Shown: piece by piece, positions 27,407-61,788 of the stretch
Layout of the letters: each line of letters starts with the position of its first letter
How positions within the stretch are numbered: position 1 is the stretch's first letter
Source of the DNA: Candidatus Saccharimonadota bacterium
GTDB taxonomy: Bacteria > Patescibacteriota > Saccharimonadia > Saccharimonadales > Saccharimonadaceae
Assembly: GCA_017552385.1 (NCBI GenBank)
Contig: JAFZQB010000010.1
Location: 1-64,000 of the forward strand
Length of the DNA stretch: 64,000 nt
Direction: 5' to 3'
Translations under genes and position numbers: made by a program
The notes under the pieces: generated by a model
What the model saw: the letters and a program-made list of their open reading frames with translations, nothing else
What the model was told of the DNA's origin: nothing
The model's database searches: none

Positions 27407-29074
27407 ATGAAGCTCATCGCATTAGACGTAGGCGAAAAACGTATTGGTGTGGCTAAAGCTGACACGAGTGTTAAGATTGCTGTGCCTATCGGGATGATCC
27501 CGGTCGACGGACAAGAAGTTACCGCCATCGTCCGTCTCTGTAATATTCAGAATACCGACAATATCATCATTGGTATGCCACGTAATCTCCAGGGTCAATT
27601 GACTAAGCAAAGTGATTATGTGAAGAATTTCACAGAATCGTTAAAGACGTCACTTCAAGCAGCTAAACCGAATGGCAAGGAGATAGGTCTTTTCTACCAG
27701 GACGAATCACTTACCTCTGTTCAGGCCGAGCAAAACCTAAAATCGAGAAATTATAATAAAAAGTCGGGTGACGTGGATGCGGAAGCCGCTACCATCATTC
27801 TTCAAGACTTTCTCGAGAATATCTCTCATCGTATTTCCGATCAACAGCCAACTGAATCTCCTGGCGCGCCAACTACAGAGGAATTGTCCGCTGCTCCACC
27901 TGCTCCCGCCGACATTTCTACCGAGCAAGCTAATAAAGAAGATGAAGACATAAAAGTCCCTATAGGAGATGGCCATATGAAAAAACACTTTTTCGTTCGT
28001 ATTATTATCATAATTATCGTTGTTGTTGGGCTCACTGGGCTTGGTGCCGTGCTTTGGTATAATTCTTCGGTTTCGCCAGTGGTAGCGTCCGACCAATGTG
28101 CTAGTTTAACGGAAGTTGATGAGACTGACCCATGCGCTACAGCTTCATTTACGGTCGAAGAAGGTTCTGGTGTTTCGGTTATTGCCGATTCGCTAGAAAA
28201 GGCTGGGCTGATTCGCAGCGCTCTTGCTTTCAAAATCTACGCCAAGTTTTCTGGCAAAGAAAACGACCTTAAACACGGCACCTATAGCTTAGCCCCATCC
28301 ATGACTGTCGAAAAGATCTTTTCTAAAATGGTAGAAGGGAGTAACGAAGCTAATGTTTTCCGCTTTACTGTTTTGCCTGGCGAGACTGAGTATGCAATCA
28401 AGACGCGGTTAATTTCTATCGGGTATACCCCAGAAGAAGTAAATAAAGCCTTCTCTAAGAAATATGACCACCCAGTTCTCGTAGATAAGCCAGACGACGC
28501 GTCTCTAGAAGGATATTTGTTTGGCGAAACCTATGAATTTTTCCAAACAGATTCGGTGGAGACAATCATCACCCGTATGCTAGACGAGCTTTACTCAGTC
28601 GTCAAGAAAAACTATCTACGCGAGAAGTTTATTGGTATGGGTTACGATCTTCATAAAGGCATTATTATGGCTTCGATTGTCCAGAAAGAAGCTGGCACGC
28701 TCTCAGAAGAAGACCAAAAAATCGTCGCTCAAGTTTTTTGGAGCCGTCTAACCGATGGTTGGAGGTTAGGAAGTGACGTTACAGCCACTTATGCTGCCGA
28801 TCAGATTGATCCAGGACGCATATATCTAGACAATAACGCTGCGATTCTTGATGTAGATTCTTGCTACAATACGCGCAAATACGCTGGCCTTCCCTGTGGG
28901 CCTATCTCAAACCCGGGCGCTCAAGTACTCTTATCGACAGCCAGCCCAGCAAACACTTCTTATCTTTATTTCTTGACAGGTGATGACGGTTTGATGTATT
29001 ATAGTACTACAGAGGCTGAGCATCTTCTGAACCGAGACCAACATTGCCAGGACCTCTGTAACGCTCAATTATGA
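27407..29074 (+). CDS. fusion of RuvX/YqgF nuclease domain and MltG endolytic transglycosylase
   Basis: 555 aa. Residues 1-145 are YqgF/RuvX (ALDVGEKRIGVA, NIIIGMPRN, YQDESLTSVQAE, KSGDVDAEAATIILQ), the pre-16S rRNA/Holliday-type RNase H-fold nuclease. A Pro/Ala/Glu linker (~146-188) follows, then a membrane helix (~194-215) and MltG/YceG (~215-555) with LEGYLFGETY and IVQKEAG (catalytic E428), which cuts new glycan strands outside. In Bacillus the homologous genes yrrK and yrrL are neighbours near alaS, so the fusion may come from adjacent genes. A Shine-Dalgarno (AGGAG at 27964-27968) stands 8 bases before in-frame ATG 27977 (residue 191), so free MltG may also be made. Confidence 0.9.
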   Translation: MKLIALDVGEKRIGVAKADTSVKIAVPIGMIPVDGQEVTAIVRLCNIQNTDNIIIGMPRNLQGQLTKQSDYVKNFTESLKTSLQAAKPNGKEIGLFYQDESLTSVQAEQNLKSRNYNKKSGDVDAEAATIILQDFLENISHRISDQQPTESPGAPTTEELSAAPPAPADISTEQANKEDEDIKVPIGDGHMKKHFFVRIIIIIIVVVGLTGLGAVLWYNSSVSPVVASDQCASLTEVDETDPCATASFTVEEGSGVSVIADSLEKAGLIRSALAFKIYAKFSGKENDLKHGTYSLAPSMTVEKIFSKMVEGSNEANVFRFTVLPGETEYAIKTRLISIGYTPEEVNKAFSKKYDHPVLVDKPDDASLEGYLFGETYEFFQTDSVETIITRMLDELYSVVKKNYLREKFIGMGYDLHKGIIMASIVQKEAGTLSEEDQKIVAQVFWSRLTDGWRLGSDVTATYAADQIDPGRIYLDNNAAILDVDSCYNTRKYAGLPCGPISNPGAQVLLSTASPANTSYLYFLTGDDGLMYYSTTEAEHLLNRDQHCQDLCNAQL

Positions 29075-30141
29075 AAACTAACAAATCTAGTAAATTTTCC
29101 AAGAGTCCGTTCGTTAGGGCTGTTTCGTATATCCTCATTGCTGGTGCTATTATAGCTACGGCTTATTTTGGGTCCCAGAATAAGACTGTAGAAGCCGACG
29201 GCACACCTATCATGATGGCAATATCCGACAACAATTACTCTGTATCCGTCGATCAGCTTTCTGAGCTATATATTGTCGCTGAGATTGCGAACAATGTTTC
29301 TCTAAGTTCATCTAGCTATCTTAACATGGACTACATTTCCGCAGTTACACAATATTCCATCAACCAGACAGCATCCACTAAGATTGAAAAGACCAATATT
29401 GTTGACACCTCATCGCTCGCTAAAGGCGTAATAGAATACGAAGTTGCCTCTGGCGAATCAATGGATAGCATTGCTGCCGCTTTCGGTCTTTCTACAGATC
29501 AGATTCGTTGGTCTAATGGTATGAAAACAACCGACGTATCAGCTGGCCAAACTCTTTATCTCCCAAGCGTCAGCGGCATCGTGTATACCATTAAAGAAGG
29601 CGACTCGCTTGATTCAATTGCTAATAAATACGGTTCTTCGGCGGCGGAAATCGAAGATAGAAACAATCTCGGCGCTCGAGGAGTTATCGCAGGCACCAAG
29701 ATTGCTGTTCCAAACGGTGTTGTCCCCGAGACAGAGCGTCCAGAATATGTTGCTCCAGCCCCAGTCCAGACCTATACCTATGTCCCGTCCTATAACCTTT
29801 ACGCCACGAGCTCCAATCCAATGCCTTACGGGTGGTGTACATGGTATGCTTGGCAATGGCGCTACGAAAACGGCTCTCCGCTTCCTGGAGGACTTGGCAA
29901 CGCTCGTTATTGGGCGTCGCAACTAGCCGCGAAAGGATACGCTGTTGGTCGCGACCCGGCCTATGGCGCCGTCTTCGTTTCTCAAGCTGGCTACTATGGC
30001 CACGTCGGTATTGTCACTGCCGTATATGATGATGGTTCTATCCAGATTACCGATATGAACGGCGTTTCTGGTTGGGGACGCGTTGGATCCAAGACTCTAG
30101 GCCCGTCCGAATGGGGTGGCTACCAATTCGTTTACATGTAA
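29071..30141 (+). CDS. secreted peptidoglycan hydrolase, two LysM domains and CHAP
   Basis: 356 aa; ATG overlaps the previous stop (ATGA). Signal-anchor at about 12-32, a linker region, then two LysM repeats (VASGESMDSIAAAFG and IKEGDSLDSIANKYG) that bind glycan, and a CHAP amidase/endopeptidase at the end: GWCTWYAW carries the nucleophile Cys, GHVGIV the His. Translationally coupled to the RuvX-MltG fusion, so a glycan-cutting and a peptide-cutting enzyme are made together; a coordinated wall-remodelling unit is likely. Confidence 0.9.
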   Translation: MKTNKSSKFSKSPFVRAVSYILIAGAIIATAYFGSQNKTVEADGTPIMMAISDNNYSVSVDQLSELYIVAEIANNVSLSSSSYLNMDYISAVTQYSINQTASTKIEKTNIVDTSSLAKGVIEYEVASGESMDSIAAAFGLSTDQIRWSNGMKTTDVSAGQTLYLPSVSGIVYTIKEGDSLDSIANKYGSSAAEIEDRNNLGARGVIAGTKIAVPNGVVPETERPEYVAPAPVQTYTYVPSYNLYATSSNPMPYGWCTWYAWQWRYENGSPLPGGLGNARYWASQLAAKGYAVGRDPAYGAVFVSQAGYYGHVGIVTAVYDDGSIQITDMNGVSGWGRVGSKTLGPSEWGGYQFVYM

Positions 30142-40568: not shown

Positions 40569-40663
40569 ATCTGCATTATAGCACAATACTCCGCAATCCA
40601 TAAGTAATAAAAACATCTAAGGACTTGCTGGAAAAAGTGACAAAAATATAATATAATATATTT

Positions 40664-43456
40664 ATGTCTGATGAAGTCGTTGAAGCTCGTTCCCGCGAGA
40701 CTTTTGTCTCGAATGTTTCTGGGCGCGCAGATTCTTCACGATTTGGCGGAGCGTCCAAAAAAGGGAAGAGAGGTTCAGGATTCTTTAAGAAAAAACACGC
40801 CCCACTGCTTGTTATTGCTGGCGTTCTTATTGCGGGAATTGCATTAGTGTTCATATCTCAGTCATTCATGCCATTCGCGTTAGTTAATCGCTTTATCGAA
40901 GAGTTTAATGGGGCAGGGATCTCTTCGACATTACGTTCTGATAGCATACTTGATATTCAACTTTCGAGCACTGGCTCATACTTTGGTTTATCCGACAATC
41001 AACGTGCCGCCCTTAAAGAGTCAAAAATCTATCCAGTTGATATTGCTGCTAATGGTACTGCCGTTACGGCATTAGTTTACGAAGAATCAACAGGTGACTG
41101 GCGTGCGGTCGTGCCTAAATCTGTCGTTGGATCAAACAACCTGAACGACAAAATTTCTGTCGCACTGAACAACTCCAACATTAGCCTAGCAAGCGCCCCA
41201 ATTTCGGTTGAGGATGCGCTCAACGGTACTTTTAAGACTCAATATGCATCTGCCTCGAAGACATGGCGCGGGGGGAATTCAGGCTGGTATGACTCTATGG
41301 AAGATCTTACTGAAGCACGTCTTGCTATCAGACGGACGCGCTTTAATTCGTGGACTGCAGCTGCTTTTTCTGGTGCAGACGAGGCTTGGCGTAAAATGGC
41401 AGCCGGCAACGTTTCTTCAGGCGACGGAGGAGTTTCAGATTACGGATCGTACCTTGAAACAGATTCAGAAGGTAACGAAACAACCGTGCGACATTCCGGT
41501 ACGGTAGACTCCAGTTCGCTATCTGGCCAAACTACGATTGAGGGAGTTCGCAGCGCTCTCAATTCTAAAATAGCAAGCGTAGCAAAGCTCGCCGCGACCG
41601 TGGGTTGCGCTGGTGTAGAGATAATGACTGCCATCCAAACTTATATGTCCGCACAACAATCGATCCAATATCTCAACCTAGCAACCGGCTACTTTGAAGC
41701 GGTACAACGTGCACAAATCGGCCAAAATGATGGCACGCCTATGAATAAATACAATAAGATTCTTACGACGCCAGATCCAGAAACAGGCAAAACACCAATG
41801 GGGGCATCAACATCACAAGCACTCTTTTCTGGCACCGCGGTTGATACAAACGATGAAAGTATAAAAACTGTTAGTTTCGAGAACCTTATGTCGAGCCTAG
41901 GAACATTGAGCGGCAACCTGAACTTTACGGCTCAGGCATTTGAAGCGTGTTCTTATGTAAAAATGGGTGTAGCGGCTACAAATTTTGTTACTACGGTCTT
42001 GAATTTTGTACCGGTTCTTGGTCAAGCCGTTAAAGCAATCCATATAGTCGCAAAGCTCGTCGGAAAAATTGCGCTTGGAGCTACAATTGCAGCCTTAACT
42101 AGCTTTATTATCCCAAAAATCATAAATCAAGTATTTAGCAATGTAGCTAAGAATGTCGCTACGCAGTGGGTCGGTGAAGATTATTTCAACGCCATGTATA
42201 GCGGTGCTGGAAAATATATCGGTGGCAATTACCAAACTGGAGGGGGGTCCGCTGGGTCAAAAGAAGCATTAAAGGCGTACAATCGCGCAAAATCTGTCGT
42301 TCTTGCAGAAGAAGCAGAGCTCGATCGCAAAACCAGAAGCCCTTTTGATCTTACGTCCAGAAACACATTCCTAGGTAGTATTGCTTATAGTCTTATCCCT
42401 ATAGCAACCAGCTCAGGAGTTGGCACTACTATCAAGAGTATCGGGAATGTTTTTACAAAATCTGTATCTAGCTTATTGCCAAGTGCATCGGCTGTTGCAG
42501 AAACGAGCCTAGTTACCAGCCTTGGCGAATGCCCAATCATGAATAGCGTAGGTGCTGTTTGTGACCCGACTGGCAATCCATACTACGTCGACGACCTGTC
42601 AACCATTGATTTAACCCCAGCTGAAATAGAAGCCAAAATTGTCGAGCTAGATCCGAACGCATTTAAGGGCGAGAATTCTAATGGGCAAAAGATTATAAAC
42701 CCCAATTCAAACCTGGGCAAAACTGCCATGATCCTCGATCAGCGCATAGCCACTCTAGGTATCGCAGATGCTAGCGCCGCTAATATACTAGTCCAGCAAC
42801 CTTCAACAATCGTTGCGAATCTTCCGCTCGTTGGCGACGTGGCGCAAATCATCTCTGCGCTTGGCGAAGCAGATAATATGCCTTGGATTTCCGGTTCCGC
42901 AGGTGTTAACTCTGAAGAAAACCCGCTATGGGATGAAGTTAAATATTATCAAAGATATATATCAGACCAACGGTTGCTTGAAGTAGCTGGCATAACGCAA
43001 AAATCTTCGGTAACTGCACTTCTCGAAGATTATTACGAACAAAACCCGCTCGACAACTCTCGCGAGGGAGTTATTGCCCGTTATTCTGGGTTGACAAAGG
43101 ATCAAGTAATCGCTGTTGAGGATACCATGGATGTCATAAATTATATCGCTAATTACGATCCTAGCACACGCACAAATTTCTCCCAAAATGATTCAGCTTA
43201 TGCTATAATAGGAACATGCCAGAACAATTCTTGCGCAAAGCAGAGGAAGGATCCACTAAACAAAAACAAAACAGCGGATCTGACGGAGCCGTTGATGAGG
43301 CTCGCTCTGCTGAATCAGGAGGAGAAGAAGGAGAGAAGTACTACACTTACGAGGATCTTGGCAACGGCGCCTTTGAGGAAGTCGAACATTTTCGTAACAA
43401 CGTTAGTGGAAACAGGAAAGACAAGGCAAAGAAGACAAAGTCTTCTGCTAGCCTAA
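40664..43456 (+). CDS. giant membrane protein, paralogue 1
   Basis: 930 aa. Basic N-terminus, a membrane helix (~45-68), an external region with SASKTWRGGNSGWYD (W201), and a long central hydrophobic hairpin (~430-485) before NVATQWVG; then a domain with SPFDLTSRNTFLGSIAYSLIPIAT. It matches the next gene block for block. No known family recognised. TATAAT (40652-40657) ends 6 bases before ATG: leaderless. The final ~79 residues (852-930) read over the 5' end of the next gene in another frame and look unlike the paralogue's end (Lys/Arg/Leu/Thr-rich). Either the original stop was lost or a frameshift exists near 43200. Confidence 0.8.
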   Translation: MSDEVVEARSRETFVSNVSGRADSSRFGGASKKGKRGSGFFKKKHAPLLVIAGVLIAGIALVFISQSFMPFALVNRFIEEFNGAGISSTLRSDSILDIQLSSTGSYFGLSDNQRAALKESKIYPVDIAANGTAVTALVYEESTGDWRAVVPKSVVGSNNLNDKISVALNNSNISLASAPISVEDALNGTFKTQYASASKTWRGGNSGWYDSMEDLTEARLAIRRTRFNSWTAAAFSGADEAWRKMAAGNVSSGDGGVSDYGSYLETDSEGNETTVRHSGTVDSSSLSGQTTIEGVRSALNSKIASVAKLAATVGCAGVEIMTAIQTYMSAQQSIQYLNLATGYFEAVQRAQIGQNDGTPMNKYNKILTTPDPETGKTPMGASTSQALFSGTAVDTNDESIKTVSFENLMSSLGTLSGNLNFTAQAFEACSYVKMGVAATNFVTTVLNFVPVLGQAVKAIHIVAKLVGKIALGATIAALTSFIIPKIINQVFSNVAKNVATQWVGEDYFNAMYSGAGKYIGGNYQTGGGSAGSKEALKAYNRAKSVVLAEEAELDRKTRSPFDLTSRNTFLGSIAYSLIPIATSSGVGTTIKSIGNVFTKSVSSLLPSASAVAETSLVTSLGECPIMNSVGAVCDPTGNPYYVDDLSTIDLTPAEIEAKIVELDPNAFKGENSNGQKIINPNSNLGKTAMILDQRIATLGIADASAANILVQQPSTIVANLPLVGDVAQIISALGEADNMPWISGSAGVNSEENPLWDEVKYYQRYISDQRLLEVAGITQKSSVTALLEDYYEQNPLDNSREGVIARYSGLTKDQVIAVEDTMDVINYIANYDPSTRTNFSQNDSAYAIIGTCQNNSCAKQRKDPLNKNKTADLTEPLMRLALLNQEEKKERSTTLTRILATAPLRKSNIFVTTLVETGKTRQRRQSLLLA

Positions 43457-46056
43457 GAAAGAAGCTCCCGCTACTCATGGCGGGGTGTATGTTAGTAATC
43501 ATCATAGCGTTTATTAGTATTGCGCAGAGTATCCTCCCTGTCGCGGTTATCAATCGCATGATTGAAGAGTTCAACACCGCTGGCTATACTGCGGTTCTAC
43601 GCTCAGACAATATCCTGAATTACCAAATGTCTAGCGTGGGAACTTCATTCGGACTAACGCAATATCAAAAAGATAGCTTCAAGAATTATGGCGTTTTGCC
43701 CGTTGACGAAGGCGGCGGGACAGTACTCGCATATGAAACTAATCAAACTGGTGTTTGGCGAGTTGCGCACGGAGAAGTCCCAGCCAGCCCGAGTATAGAT
43801 AAAATCAAAAGATTACTCGTTGAGCTGTATTCTGATCTAGGGTATAGGTTCGACACGCTCTCGCTAGTTACGCTAGAAGAAGCTATGAACGATGGAAATT
43901 TCAAGAACGCTTATACTTCTGCCTCAAAGACATGGCGCGGTGGTAACGCTGGATGGTATGACACACTCAGCTCACTTAATGAAGAAATACGCGGCTATAC
44001 TCGTACTCGCTTTTGGTACACAGTTACGGATTCTCTCAATAACAACTTAGCTAGCACTACTAAGGCTTTAAACTATCGCAGGAGTCGCAGGTTCAATCTT
44101 TCAGTGACGGCGACCGCTAAGCGAAAGATTAACCAGTTCATTGTCAAAACGATGGCTGGCACCAAGTTAGGCAAAGCTCTAATGAACAGGCCAGTAAACA
44201 TGACCAAAGATCGCGTCGCAATGGGCAGACTCGGGCTCGAGGCTTCTGCGCTTCTTGGTTATGTATCATCGGGTATATCTTTGGGTTGTGCGGGCTTACA
44301 AATGATCTCTAAAGCCCAAACAATTATATCGAGTATACAGAACTTGCAATATCTCAATCTTGCCTCGGGCATGGGCGAAGCAGTGCAAGGTGCCCAAGTA
44401 GGGAACAATGATGGCGAGGCCATGCATACCTATATGGAAGCCATTACAAAAAATGACGAGTCTGGCCATAACGGTATGGAGTCGGAAGGGATGTCGGCGG
44501 TCATGACCGGTTCAGAGATTAACGAAGACGCCGATAGCGTTAAACAGGTCAACTCCGAAAGAGCCATGACTAGTATAGATACCTCTACCTCATCTGGCAA
44601 TCTTATCGTAGACACACTTCGCAGCCTCGCAGTGGAAATGACCGACATGTTATCAGCCATAAATACCTGTAAAAAAGTCGCTGCCGGGCTTAGCATTCTA
44701 AGTACGGTGGCTACTGTTGCCATAACAGTTGTTACATATGGCGCTGGAGCTCTTGTCGATACATTCTTGACATCTCTCATTTCAAGCGTTGCTTCGATAG
44801 CCATTCAAGAAAGCCTAAAGCCACTTGCGAATGCAATAATAGACTGGGTATGGGATAGTTTTTCTGACACGATTGCTCAGAATGTCGCCACCGACTGGCT
44901 TGGCCCAGCTCTCGGAGAAGCGACATATGTAGGGTTTAACGGACTACTGGCTAGCCAGGGCTTAATCGGATCCAGTGCGCTAGGAGGTAAAAACGAAGTT
45001 AAGGCATACATGCGCGAGAGAGATCGTATCATCGCCGAAGAAGCGGAGTATCAACGGAGCATTCGGTCGCCATTTGATGTTAGATCACAATATACCTTCC
45101 TCGGGAGCATTGTGTACAGTTTAATTCCTGTCGCGACTACGTCGAACGTAGGCGGTATTATCAAAGGCATCAGCAACGTTATGAACAATTCAGTATCGAA
45201 AATTATACCAACGGCTTCCGCCGTGGCGGAGACTAATATCGTTACGGGATTCGGTGATTGTCCTGCCTTGGAGGACATCGGCGCAGCCTGCGACAAGCTA
45301 GGACGCCCATACGTCATATCTGACGAAAGTGCTTTAAAGAGCTATGAGCCCCAACAACTAGTTGATAAAGTGTATGCTCTGAAGGGAATTACTAGCAAGA
45401 CTCCGAACTCATCGGGGACTTACGAAGTCACTAAGGATTCCAATGCTGAAAAATTCTTGACGTACTGCGGCGAACGCTTGTCCGAATTTGGGAAAGCAGA
45501 TGCGAATATTTCTGAAATGGAGGCGCAGAGAGCCAGGAAGAACCACTGGTGGGCGAGCATTCCTATTCTTGGTAGCCTCATAGAATCCATCATTACCATC
45601 TTCAAAGACGATACAGAGGAAAGGGCGTGGATTATGGGCAACTATTGTGTTGACTCCGAAGAGAACTCTTGCTTCTGGGAATCCGAGGGTAAATATTATC
45701 AAGCCTTCTTCCAAGATCAACGTATTCTTGAGAATGCTGGAGCTATCGAAAAAAGCGCCGCTACTATAGCCCTCGAACGCTATCACGATGAATACCCACT
45801 CGACAACTCCACTGAAGGCATCCTTGCCCGCTATTCTGGCATGACTAAGGACGATGTTATCGCTACGCTTGACTTCATGGAAGCCATGGACTATCTTGCA
45901 AATTACAAGCCAGAGGAGCGCGTGGCTTTCGGAGCAGAAGATACCGATGATACTATTCTCTTTGAAGAAACCGAGGACGACTTCTCGAGATTTATAGCCA
46001 TAGAGCCAAAATATGTAGTATACGATGCAATCAGAAACCGCGCGACTTTAGTCTAA
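43216..46056 (+). CDS. giant membrane protein, paralogue 2
   Basis: 946 aa. Similar blocks to the previous gene: signal-anchor helix (~88-110), SASKTWRGGNAGWYDTL (W240), a hydrophobic hairpin region (~490-560) before NVATDWLG, SPFDVRSQYTFLGSIVYSLIPVAT, YYQAFFQDQRILENAGA and YSGMTKDDVIATLDFMEAMDYLANY. The N-terminal cytosolic part is longer and acidic (TYEDLGNG and so on). TGCTATAAT (43201-43209) lies inside the upstream gene and ends 6 bases before ATG, so it has its own leaderless promoter. Extracellular or membrane-inserting role probable from layout; function unknown. Confidence 0.8.
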   Translation: MPEQFLRKAEEGSTKQKQNSGSDGAVDEARSAESGGEEGEKYYTYEDLGNGAFEEVEHFRNNVSGNRKDKAKKTKSSASLRKKLPLLMAGCMLVIIIAFISIAQSILPVAVINRMIEEFNTAGYTAVLRSDNILNYQMSSVGTSFGLTQYQKDSFKNYGVLPVDEGGGTVLAYETNQTGVWRVAHGEVPASPSIDKIKRLLVELYSDLGYRFDTLSLVTLEEAMNDGNFKNAYTSASKTWRGGNAGWYDTLSSLNEEIRGYTRTRFWYTVTDSLNNNLASTTKALNYRRSRRFNLSVTATAKRKINQFIVKTMAGTKLGKALMNRPVNMTKDRVAMGRLGLEASALLGYVSSGISLGCAGLQMISKAQTIISSIQNLQYLNLASGMGEAVQGAQVGNNDGEAMHTYMEAITKNDESGHNGMESEGMSAVMTGSEINEDADSVKQVNSERAMTSIDTSTSSGNLIVDTLRSLAVEMTDMLSAINTCKKVAAGLSILSTVATVAITVVTYGAGALVDTFLTSLISSVASIAIQESLKPLANAIIDWVWDSFSDTIAQNVATDWLGPALGEATYVGFNGLLASQGLIGSSALGGKNEVKAYMRERDRIIAEEAEYQRSIRSPFDVRSQYTFLGSIVYSLIPVATTSNVGGIIKGISNVMNNSVSKIIPTASAVAETNIVTGFGDCPALEDIGAACDKLGRPYVISDESALKSYEPQQLVDKVYALKGITSKTPNSSGTYEVTKDSNAEKFLTYCGERLSEFGKADANISEMEAQRARKNHWWASIPILGSLIESIITIFKDDTEERAWIMGNYCVDSEENSCFWESEGKYYQAFFQDQRILENAGAIEKSAATIALERYHDEYPLDNSTEGILARYSGMTKDDVIATLDFMEAMDYLANYKPEERVAFGAEDTDDTILFEETEDDFSRFIAIEPKYVVYDAIRNRATLV

Positions 46057-61020: not shown

Positions 61021-61788
61021 ATGCCACCGAAGAAGAGAATAAGCTACAAAACGAGGCGTATTATTGGTACTCTTTCTCTTCTTTTAGCGATTGCTGGAGT
61101 TGTCGTCTTGAATCCAGCATCATACGAATCAGTTTGGACACGATTGGACAATCCAGAATCCGAGAATGTAGCCCCTCTAGGTGCCTCAGTTACCAATTCT
61201 GACACTAACTCCCCAACTACAAAAGCGGTGGATGTTCTTGAGCAGCTTGCAGTTAAAGGGCGAGCTCCCAAGACAGGCTACTCACGCGACCAGTTTTATG
61301 AAACGTGGCCAACAATAGACGGCTGTTCTTTGCGCCAACATATTATCAAGCGCGAGATGGGCGATAGTGCGACCATTTCGAGCATTGATAATTGCGCGGT
61401 TATATCTGGAGAATACGATGATCCATATACGGGTTCTCATATTATTTTTCATGAAAAGGCCGATTTCACTTCTGGAATTCAGATAGACCATATCGTAGCT
61501 CTTTCTGACGCGTGGCAGAAGGGCGCACAGCAACTTACGGCAGAGGATCGATATCAACTAGCTACTGACCCTCTTAACCTTATTGCTGTCGATAGCCAAG
61601 CAAACCAAAACAAATCTGATGGTGATGCTGCTACATGGCTCCCGCCCAATAAAGCATTTCGCTGTGAGTATGTCGCACGTCAAGTATCGGTAAAACATAA
61701 ATATCATCTCTGGGTTACAGAAGCCGAGAAAGCAGCTATTCAAAATGTCTTAAATAAGTGTCCAGATGAACCGGCGATCGGCATCTAA
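61021..61788 (+). CDS. secreted or membrane-anchored HNH endonuclease (DUF1524/GmrSD C-terminal type)
   Basis: 255 aa. Signal-anchor (~12-32), a Ser/Thr/Asn linker, and a nuclease domain: FTSGIQIDHIVALSDAW with the DH pair, NLIAVDSQANQNKSDGDAATW and a final YVARQVSVKHKYHLWVT. The pattern fits the His-Asn-His fold of the secreted DUF1524 family. It should act on external DNA or RNA, for feeding or in DNA uptake. TGATATATT (61006-61014) ends 6 bases before ATG: leaderless. Confidence 0.8.
   Translation: MPPKKRISYKTRRIIGTLSLLLAIAGVVVLNPASYESVWTRLDNPESENVAPLGASVTNSDTNSPTTKAVDVLEQLAVKGRAPKTGYSRDQFYETWPTIDGCSLRQHIIKREMGDSATISSIDNCAVISGEYDDPYTGSHIIFHEKADFTSGIQIDHIVALSDAWQKGAQQLTAEDRYQLATDPLNLIAVDSQANQNKSDGDAATWLPPNKAFRCEYVARQVSVKHKYHLWVTEAEKAAIQNVLNKCPDEPAIGI

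Follow-up and report, generated by a model that had tools for sequence, protein, structure and literature searches.

Overlapping paralogous membrane proteins of a Saccharibacterial genome as probable relocated, enzyme-less subunits of the T4SS

What are the two very large membrane proteins that are encoded in tandem, with overlapping frames, in a Candidatus Saccharimonadota genome (GCA_017552385.1)? They lie in a stretch of 64,000 nucleotides (contig JAFZQB010000010.1, positions 1 to 64,000; hereafter, the window), and a sequence-only reading had described them as paralogues of no recognised family that share a hydrophobic hairpin, have their own leaderless promoters, and may form an undescribed contact or secretion device. 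Both frames, here termed A and B, are present at the lengths given in that reading, and the 241-base overlap between them is confirmed (Table 1). Their paralogy is borne out by 36% identity over about 850 residues (BLASTP, E = 2e-150), and the motifs that were quoted for them are present and are conserved in relatives. It is likewise correct that A ends differently from its paralogue: its last ~81 residues, which are encoded in the overlap, do not align with B and have no counterpart there.

Table 1. Positions of proteins A and B and of their features in the window
Feature	Position	Strand	Remarks
Protein A	40664..43456	+	930 aa; single membrane span behind a basic N-terminus; large part predicted to be extracytoplasmic; last ~81 residues non-homologous
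Protein B	43216..46056	+	946 aa; paralogue of A; C-terminus of the type usual in the family (YDAIRNRATLV)
Overlap of A end and B start	43216..43456		241 bases, different frames
-10-like box of A, TATAAT	40652..40657	+	Ends 6 bases before ATG
Membrane span of A	40799..40867	+	Residues ~46-68; averaged hydropathy
Signature block of A (SPFDxxSxYTFLGSIVYSLIP...SASA type)	42338..42499	+	
-10-like box of B, TGCTATAAT	43201..43209	+	Ends 6 bases before ATG, leaderless arrangement; conserved in five genomes
Membrane span of B	43468..43539	+	Residues ~85-108; averaged hydropathy and structure model
Small alpha/beta domain of B	43660..43938	+	Residues ~149-241; pLDDT near 90; no match to a known fold
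Signature block of B, SPFDxxSxYTFLGSIVYSLIP...SASA	45067..45240	+	Family signature, conserved across genera
Lineage-specific C-terminal block of B	45562..45924	+	Occupies the place of the M23, VanY or Exo_endo_phos domains of relatives in other genera

Averaged hydropathy assigns one strong span to each protein, in agreement with the membrane anchoring proposed for both, plus a weaker Ala/Gly-rich stretch around residues 494-538 of B; this pattern does not support a clear hairpin. The family members examined have the same beginning, a charged N-terminus followed by one firm span. Searches of Pfam, NCBIfam, and PHROGs returned nothing above chance for A, B, or their close relatives; within the family libraries, no TrbL match was obtained for either protein and no peptidoglycan hydrolase domain was recognised in them, and a sequence search of the PDB gave a single match, at E = 0.55. 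Structure models of B (mean pLDDT of 61 at full length and 73 for the N-terminal domain model) drew only matches within noise, with best values of E = 0.26 and 0.37 in Foldseek and Z = 3.7 and 3.2 in VIA-align. VirB8, PrgK domains, and pore-forming toxins were absent from these fold matches, although the models are of moderate quality and such a search cannot exclude them. With no Pfam, NCBIfam, PDB-sequence, or fold match, the family is as unrecognised as had been supposed.

A contig scan with the B sequence alone found no match, and a scan with an alignment of close relatives recovered 11 named loci, the nearest named relatives being Candidatus Saccharibacteria, mostly from the guts of sheep and goats. 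In the window's genus, 59 of the 60 genomes contain members, which for the most part do not form an overlapping pair (1 to 5 match segments per genome, several of which can derive from one long member), and all 39 genomes with a completeness of at least 90% and a contamination of at most 5% carry at least one. A class-wide, 21-row profile matched 76 of 147 genomes, all of them, among the matches listed, within the window's own GTDB family; this apparent limit is one of sensitivity, because a virB4-guided search (below) recovers members in other genera and families. A and B themselves match the family profile, including its SPFD...TFLGS block. The sequence-only reading had proposed looking for the same pair in other Saccharibacteria; members of the family are found both across the genus and outside it.

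Judged from gene order, the family gene normally lies directly behind virB4 in the Saccharibacterial T4SS operon. Around members from other genera of this GTDB family, 20 regions were fetched; 16 of them hold virB4, and in all 16 the member follows it directly, in the order VirB6-like, PrgI, VirB4 N-terminal piece (TraC-like/TrsD), VirB4, member; the next gene is, as a rule, a lysozyme or glucosaminidase. These 20 regions had been chosen because they hold members. A separate, ascertainment-free test therefore started from virB4 alone, in profile-negative genomes from other genera and families, and drew on 14 loci. All 14 encode a large protein behind virB4, from 545 (cut by a contig end) to 1482 residues in length. 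The first pass of an iterated HMM search started from known members recruited 11 of these proteins (E = 3e-4 to 1e-43); with the second pass all 14 had joined, and no other ORF of the 14 loci fell below E = 0.1. Across the 1572 ORFs of all loci, every match fell either to a long member or to a member fragment truncated at the end of a locus. Two or three members occur within the T4SS region at L116, L117 (G158), L124 (G095), and L125 (G134), several of them each followed by its own lysozyme, which looks like duplication of a member-lysozyme unit.

The window's genus differs in placement: a member lies directly behind virB4 in four of its 18 virB4 loci. In close relatives of A and B, the genes are flanked by a dCMP deaminase-like gene on one side and a P-type ATPase gene on the other; other loci of the genus have members next to VirB6-like genes, at the recF-dnaN-dnaA junction, directly between virB4 and cell wall hydrolases, or ahead of genes that look like pheS/pheT. 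The recF-dnaN-dnaA junction, where nine genomes of the genus keep a shorter member, is the site of the T4SS operon in other species.

At their C-terminal ends, many virB4-adjacent relatives carry enzyme domains, which vary: Peptidase_M23 (L107, L121, L127, and L128, with L129 below the curated cut-off), VanY (L113, L120, and L130), and Exo_endo_phos (L115, L121, and L127). The presence of wall enzymes at this end of relatives implies that it should face outward. In the window's genus and one neighbouring genus, the enzyme is replaced by a C-terminal block found only in these members, and many members of the window's genus finish in an exact tail like YaDvRNRSfaV, which B has and A has lost. 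As a separate observation, the Exo_endo_phos domains within these T4SS-operon proteins, some of them together with M23, could possibly represent an outward-facing nuclease in organisms thought to be unable to make nucleotides.

The genome of the window (97% complete) has one virB4, in an operon that adjoins recF-dnaN-dnaA on a contig other than that of A and B. This operon runs VirB6-like, PrgI, TraC-N, VirB4, Phage_lysozyme2 protein, and contains no family member. A and B, the only members found in the genome, are thus assigned to the family by sequence and not by a position directly behind virB4; if the T4SS requires such a subunit, it has to come from A, B, or both. About 13 kb from virB4, the same genome encodes a protein of 374 aa whose N-terminus weakly matches T4SS_pilin (VirB2-like) and whose C-terminal domain is unassigned (L065:631-1755). 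The window itself encodes a LysM plus CHAP wall hydrolase outside the T4SS operon (29071-30141) and, behind ribosomal protein L1, a stand-alone GmrSD_C domain protein (61021-61788).

We consider it probable, if well short of certain, that A and B are single-span, wall-facing scaffold subunits of the T4SS that have been relocated, have no enzyme, and have been duplicated. The N-terminus and span would dock on the translocon of VirB6-like protein, PrgI, and VirB4, and the outer part of ~800 residues would cross the cell wall space as a scaffold that positions wall-opening enzymes. In the window's lineage, a block with no recognised enzyme would replace the enzyme domain, and cutting would fall to the lysozyme that the operon encodes as a gene of its own; A and B, having arisen by duplication, may assemble together in one mixed complex or separately in two alternative ones. 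Of the device imagined in the sequence-only reading, the link to secretion stands, and its separateness does not, as the family belongs to a known T4SS operon.

The scaffold job envisaged here is that of PrgK in pCF10, which carries its own LytM, lysozyme, and CHAP domains. PrgK (VirB1-like, of the DELTA class of Gram-positive T4SS wall hydrolases, with TraG of pIP501 as an analogue) shares the slot directly after virB4, the order in pCF10 being PrgI, VirB4 (PrgJ), and then PrgK; the VirB4 of the window's genome matches PrgJ at E = 2e-43, and its operon lysozyme matches the lysozyme domain of PrgK at E = 1e-10. PrgK also resembles the family in its cytoplasmic N-terminus, one membrane span, and large outer part, a topology that hydropathy and model predict for A and B. 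Our searches of PrgK found a weak M23, Phage_lysozyme2, and CHAP, and degenerate M23/LytM, Phage_lysozyme2, and CHAP domains have been described for it (PMC11323569). Relatives in the family, too, possess an M23/LytM domain, and the lysozyme that is fused in PrgK is the separate next gene in Saccharibacteria, such that a member ending in M23 and followed by a lysozyme gene repeats the domain order of PrgK as two genes. The two differ in that the family core has no detectable homology to PrgK (hhalign probability of 0.2) and in that the enzyme of the family is far C-terminal and variable or absent, with A and B having no recognised enzyme domain and lying outside the operon. By analogy, then, the core may work like the anchor of PrgK, yet it is not a PrgK, because it is not detectably related to one.

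The operon around the family corresponds to the T4SS of Patescibacteria (VirB2, VirB3/PrgI, VirB4, VirB6, and TrsD) as catalogued in a 2025 survey (PMC12102498). According to this survey, VirB1 and VirB8 are mostly missing from patescibacterial systems and other proteins may do their work; in Southlakia epibionticum, epibiotic growth depends on a peptidase gene and a lysozyme gene that immediately follow virB4, both being essential (citing Tn-seq, PMC10633639). The family is a candidate for the work of the missing proteins. Its conserved nonenzymatic core, enzyme-less relatives, and relocated or duplicated copies are not described in the parts of the survey consulted, and, supplementary tables aside, we found no description of the core or of the enzyme-less, relocated forms in the papers searched. 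In comparison with VirB6/TrbL, some members adjoin VirB6-like genes, but A and B have one firm span plus a weak stretch rather than five or more spans, and the operon has a VirB6-like protein of its own.

Some findings count against a scaffold: A and B are not in the operon, and their continued part in a working T4SS would have to be assumed; a number of genomes in the genus carry two or more members, which exceeds the need for a single structural subunit; and the core shows no homology to PrgK and no fold match, with no recognised enzyme in A or B. The proteins could instead be effectors, delivered by the T4SS or deployed on the surface, with a conserved N-terminal carrier and exchangeable C-terminal enzymes aimed at the host bacterium, the new block being the payload here. 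Several divergent copies in many genomes, exchangeable domains that include Exo_endo_phos (wall peptidase, carboxypeptidase, phosphodiesterase/DNase-like), the moderately hydrophobic middle stretch, and the conserved exact tail all accord with such effectors; we nonetheless judge them unlikely, given the firm N-terminal span after a charged N-terminus in the members examined, the order-wide fixed slot behind virB4 (as for a machine part), and the lack of a recognised immunity-like partner at the window locus.

Closest to the idea of the sequence-only reading would be a repurposing of the relocated copies of the genus, which would then act at the surface as adhesins or in contact, with no dependence on the T4SS. 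Relocation, loss of the enzyme domain, and duplication would all suit adhesins, as would the secreted cutinase/VWA-domain protein gene that lies directly upstream of the pair in most close relatives. (One such cutinase plus von Willebrand A protein, of about 600 aa, is at L024:4737-6521, with equivalents at L025, L027-L029, L083-L087, L089, L090, L092, and L093.) This gene was not found in the window's genome, however, and the retention of at least one member by every well-covered genome of the genus, nearly all of those tested also keeping virB4, renders adhesins rather unlikely.

A substitution for the missing VirB8, the wall-space ring subunit, would accord with the topology (N-in, one span, domain outside), and VirB8 is unrecognised in S. 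epibionticum, for which a completely different protein has been suggested to do its job (PMC12102498). The likeness to VirB8, PrgL, and TcpC is one of topology only, with no match in sequence or fold: the predicted outer alpha/beta domain (helix-helix-three strands-helix) drew no VirB8 match in a search that cannot exclude one, and family proteins, A and B included, are much larger. We regard a VirB8 substitute as quite improbable.

The A/B pair occurs in seven genomes, including that of the window, and the frames overlap in all seven, by 74 to 241 bases (window, 241; L083, 211; L084, 232; L086, 74; L088, 202; L089, 74; L090, 175). Because the overlapping pair recurs in this manner, a sequencing error can be excluded as its cause. 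In a FastTree tree (with long-branch warnings for its deep part), the A-type (9) and B-type (10) genes form two sister groups, and the duplication therefore predates these species. At two further loci (L085 and L087), an A-type gene occurs with no B and extends into the next, unrelated gene. When the codons of B are shuffled synonymously, the frame of A stays open equally long in 6 to 42% of trials; the overlap is thus unremarkable, and its length alone does not speak for a functional tail. It is accordingly very improbable that the tail of A is a second coding region, overprinted and under selection, despite a frame that is open in all seven pairs and often ends with RR and then a small hydrophobic end, since its Arg-rich end is a shifted-frame reading of the Lys-rich stretch that precedes the membrane span of B and since A-type genes also run on where B is missing.

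The -10-like box of B does lie inside the frame of A, as had been described, and the CTTATGCTATAAT preceding the second start is retained in five of the seven pair genomes. Boxes of this kind stand 12 to 14 bases ahead of about 14 of the 33 start codons checked in the window, such that leaderless-looking promoters are usual there. A special promoter for the pair was therefore dropped, and such promoters do not distinguish it; the spacing, as expected for leaderless transcripts, seems to be a general habit of this genome.

A 2024 review called the function of the Saccharibacterial T4SS completely unknown (PMC11665869), although genes of this system are essential for growth on the host. The family, which lies behind virB4 order-wide and, in one gut genus, has moved and increased in copy number, offers a concrete subunit to study. 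It is conceivable, though on balance unlikely, that epibiosis has its working end in this modular family: a fixed membrane carrier within an essential T4SS would present or deliver to the host a range of exchangeable enzymes, among them wall peptidases, carboxypeptidases, and DNase-like phosphodiesterases, with a new domain of unknown kind in the window's genus. The swappable enzymes, which are expected to face outward, hint at what the T4SS cuts.
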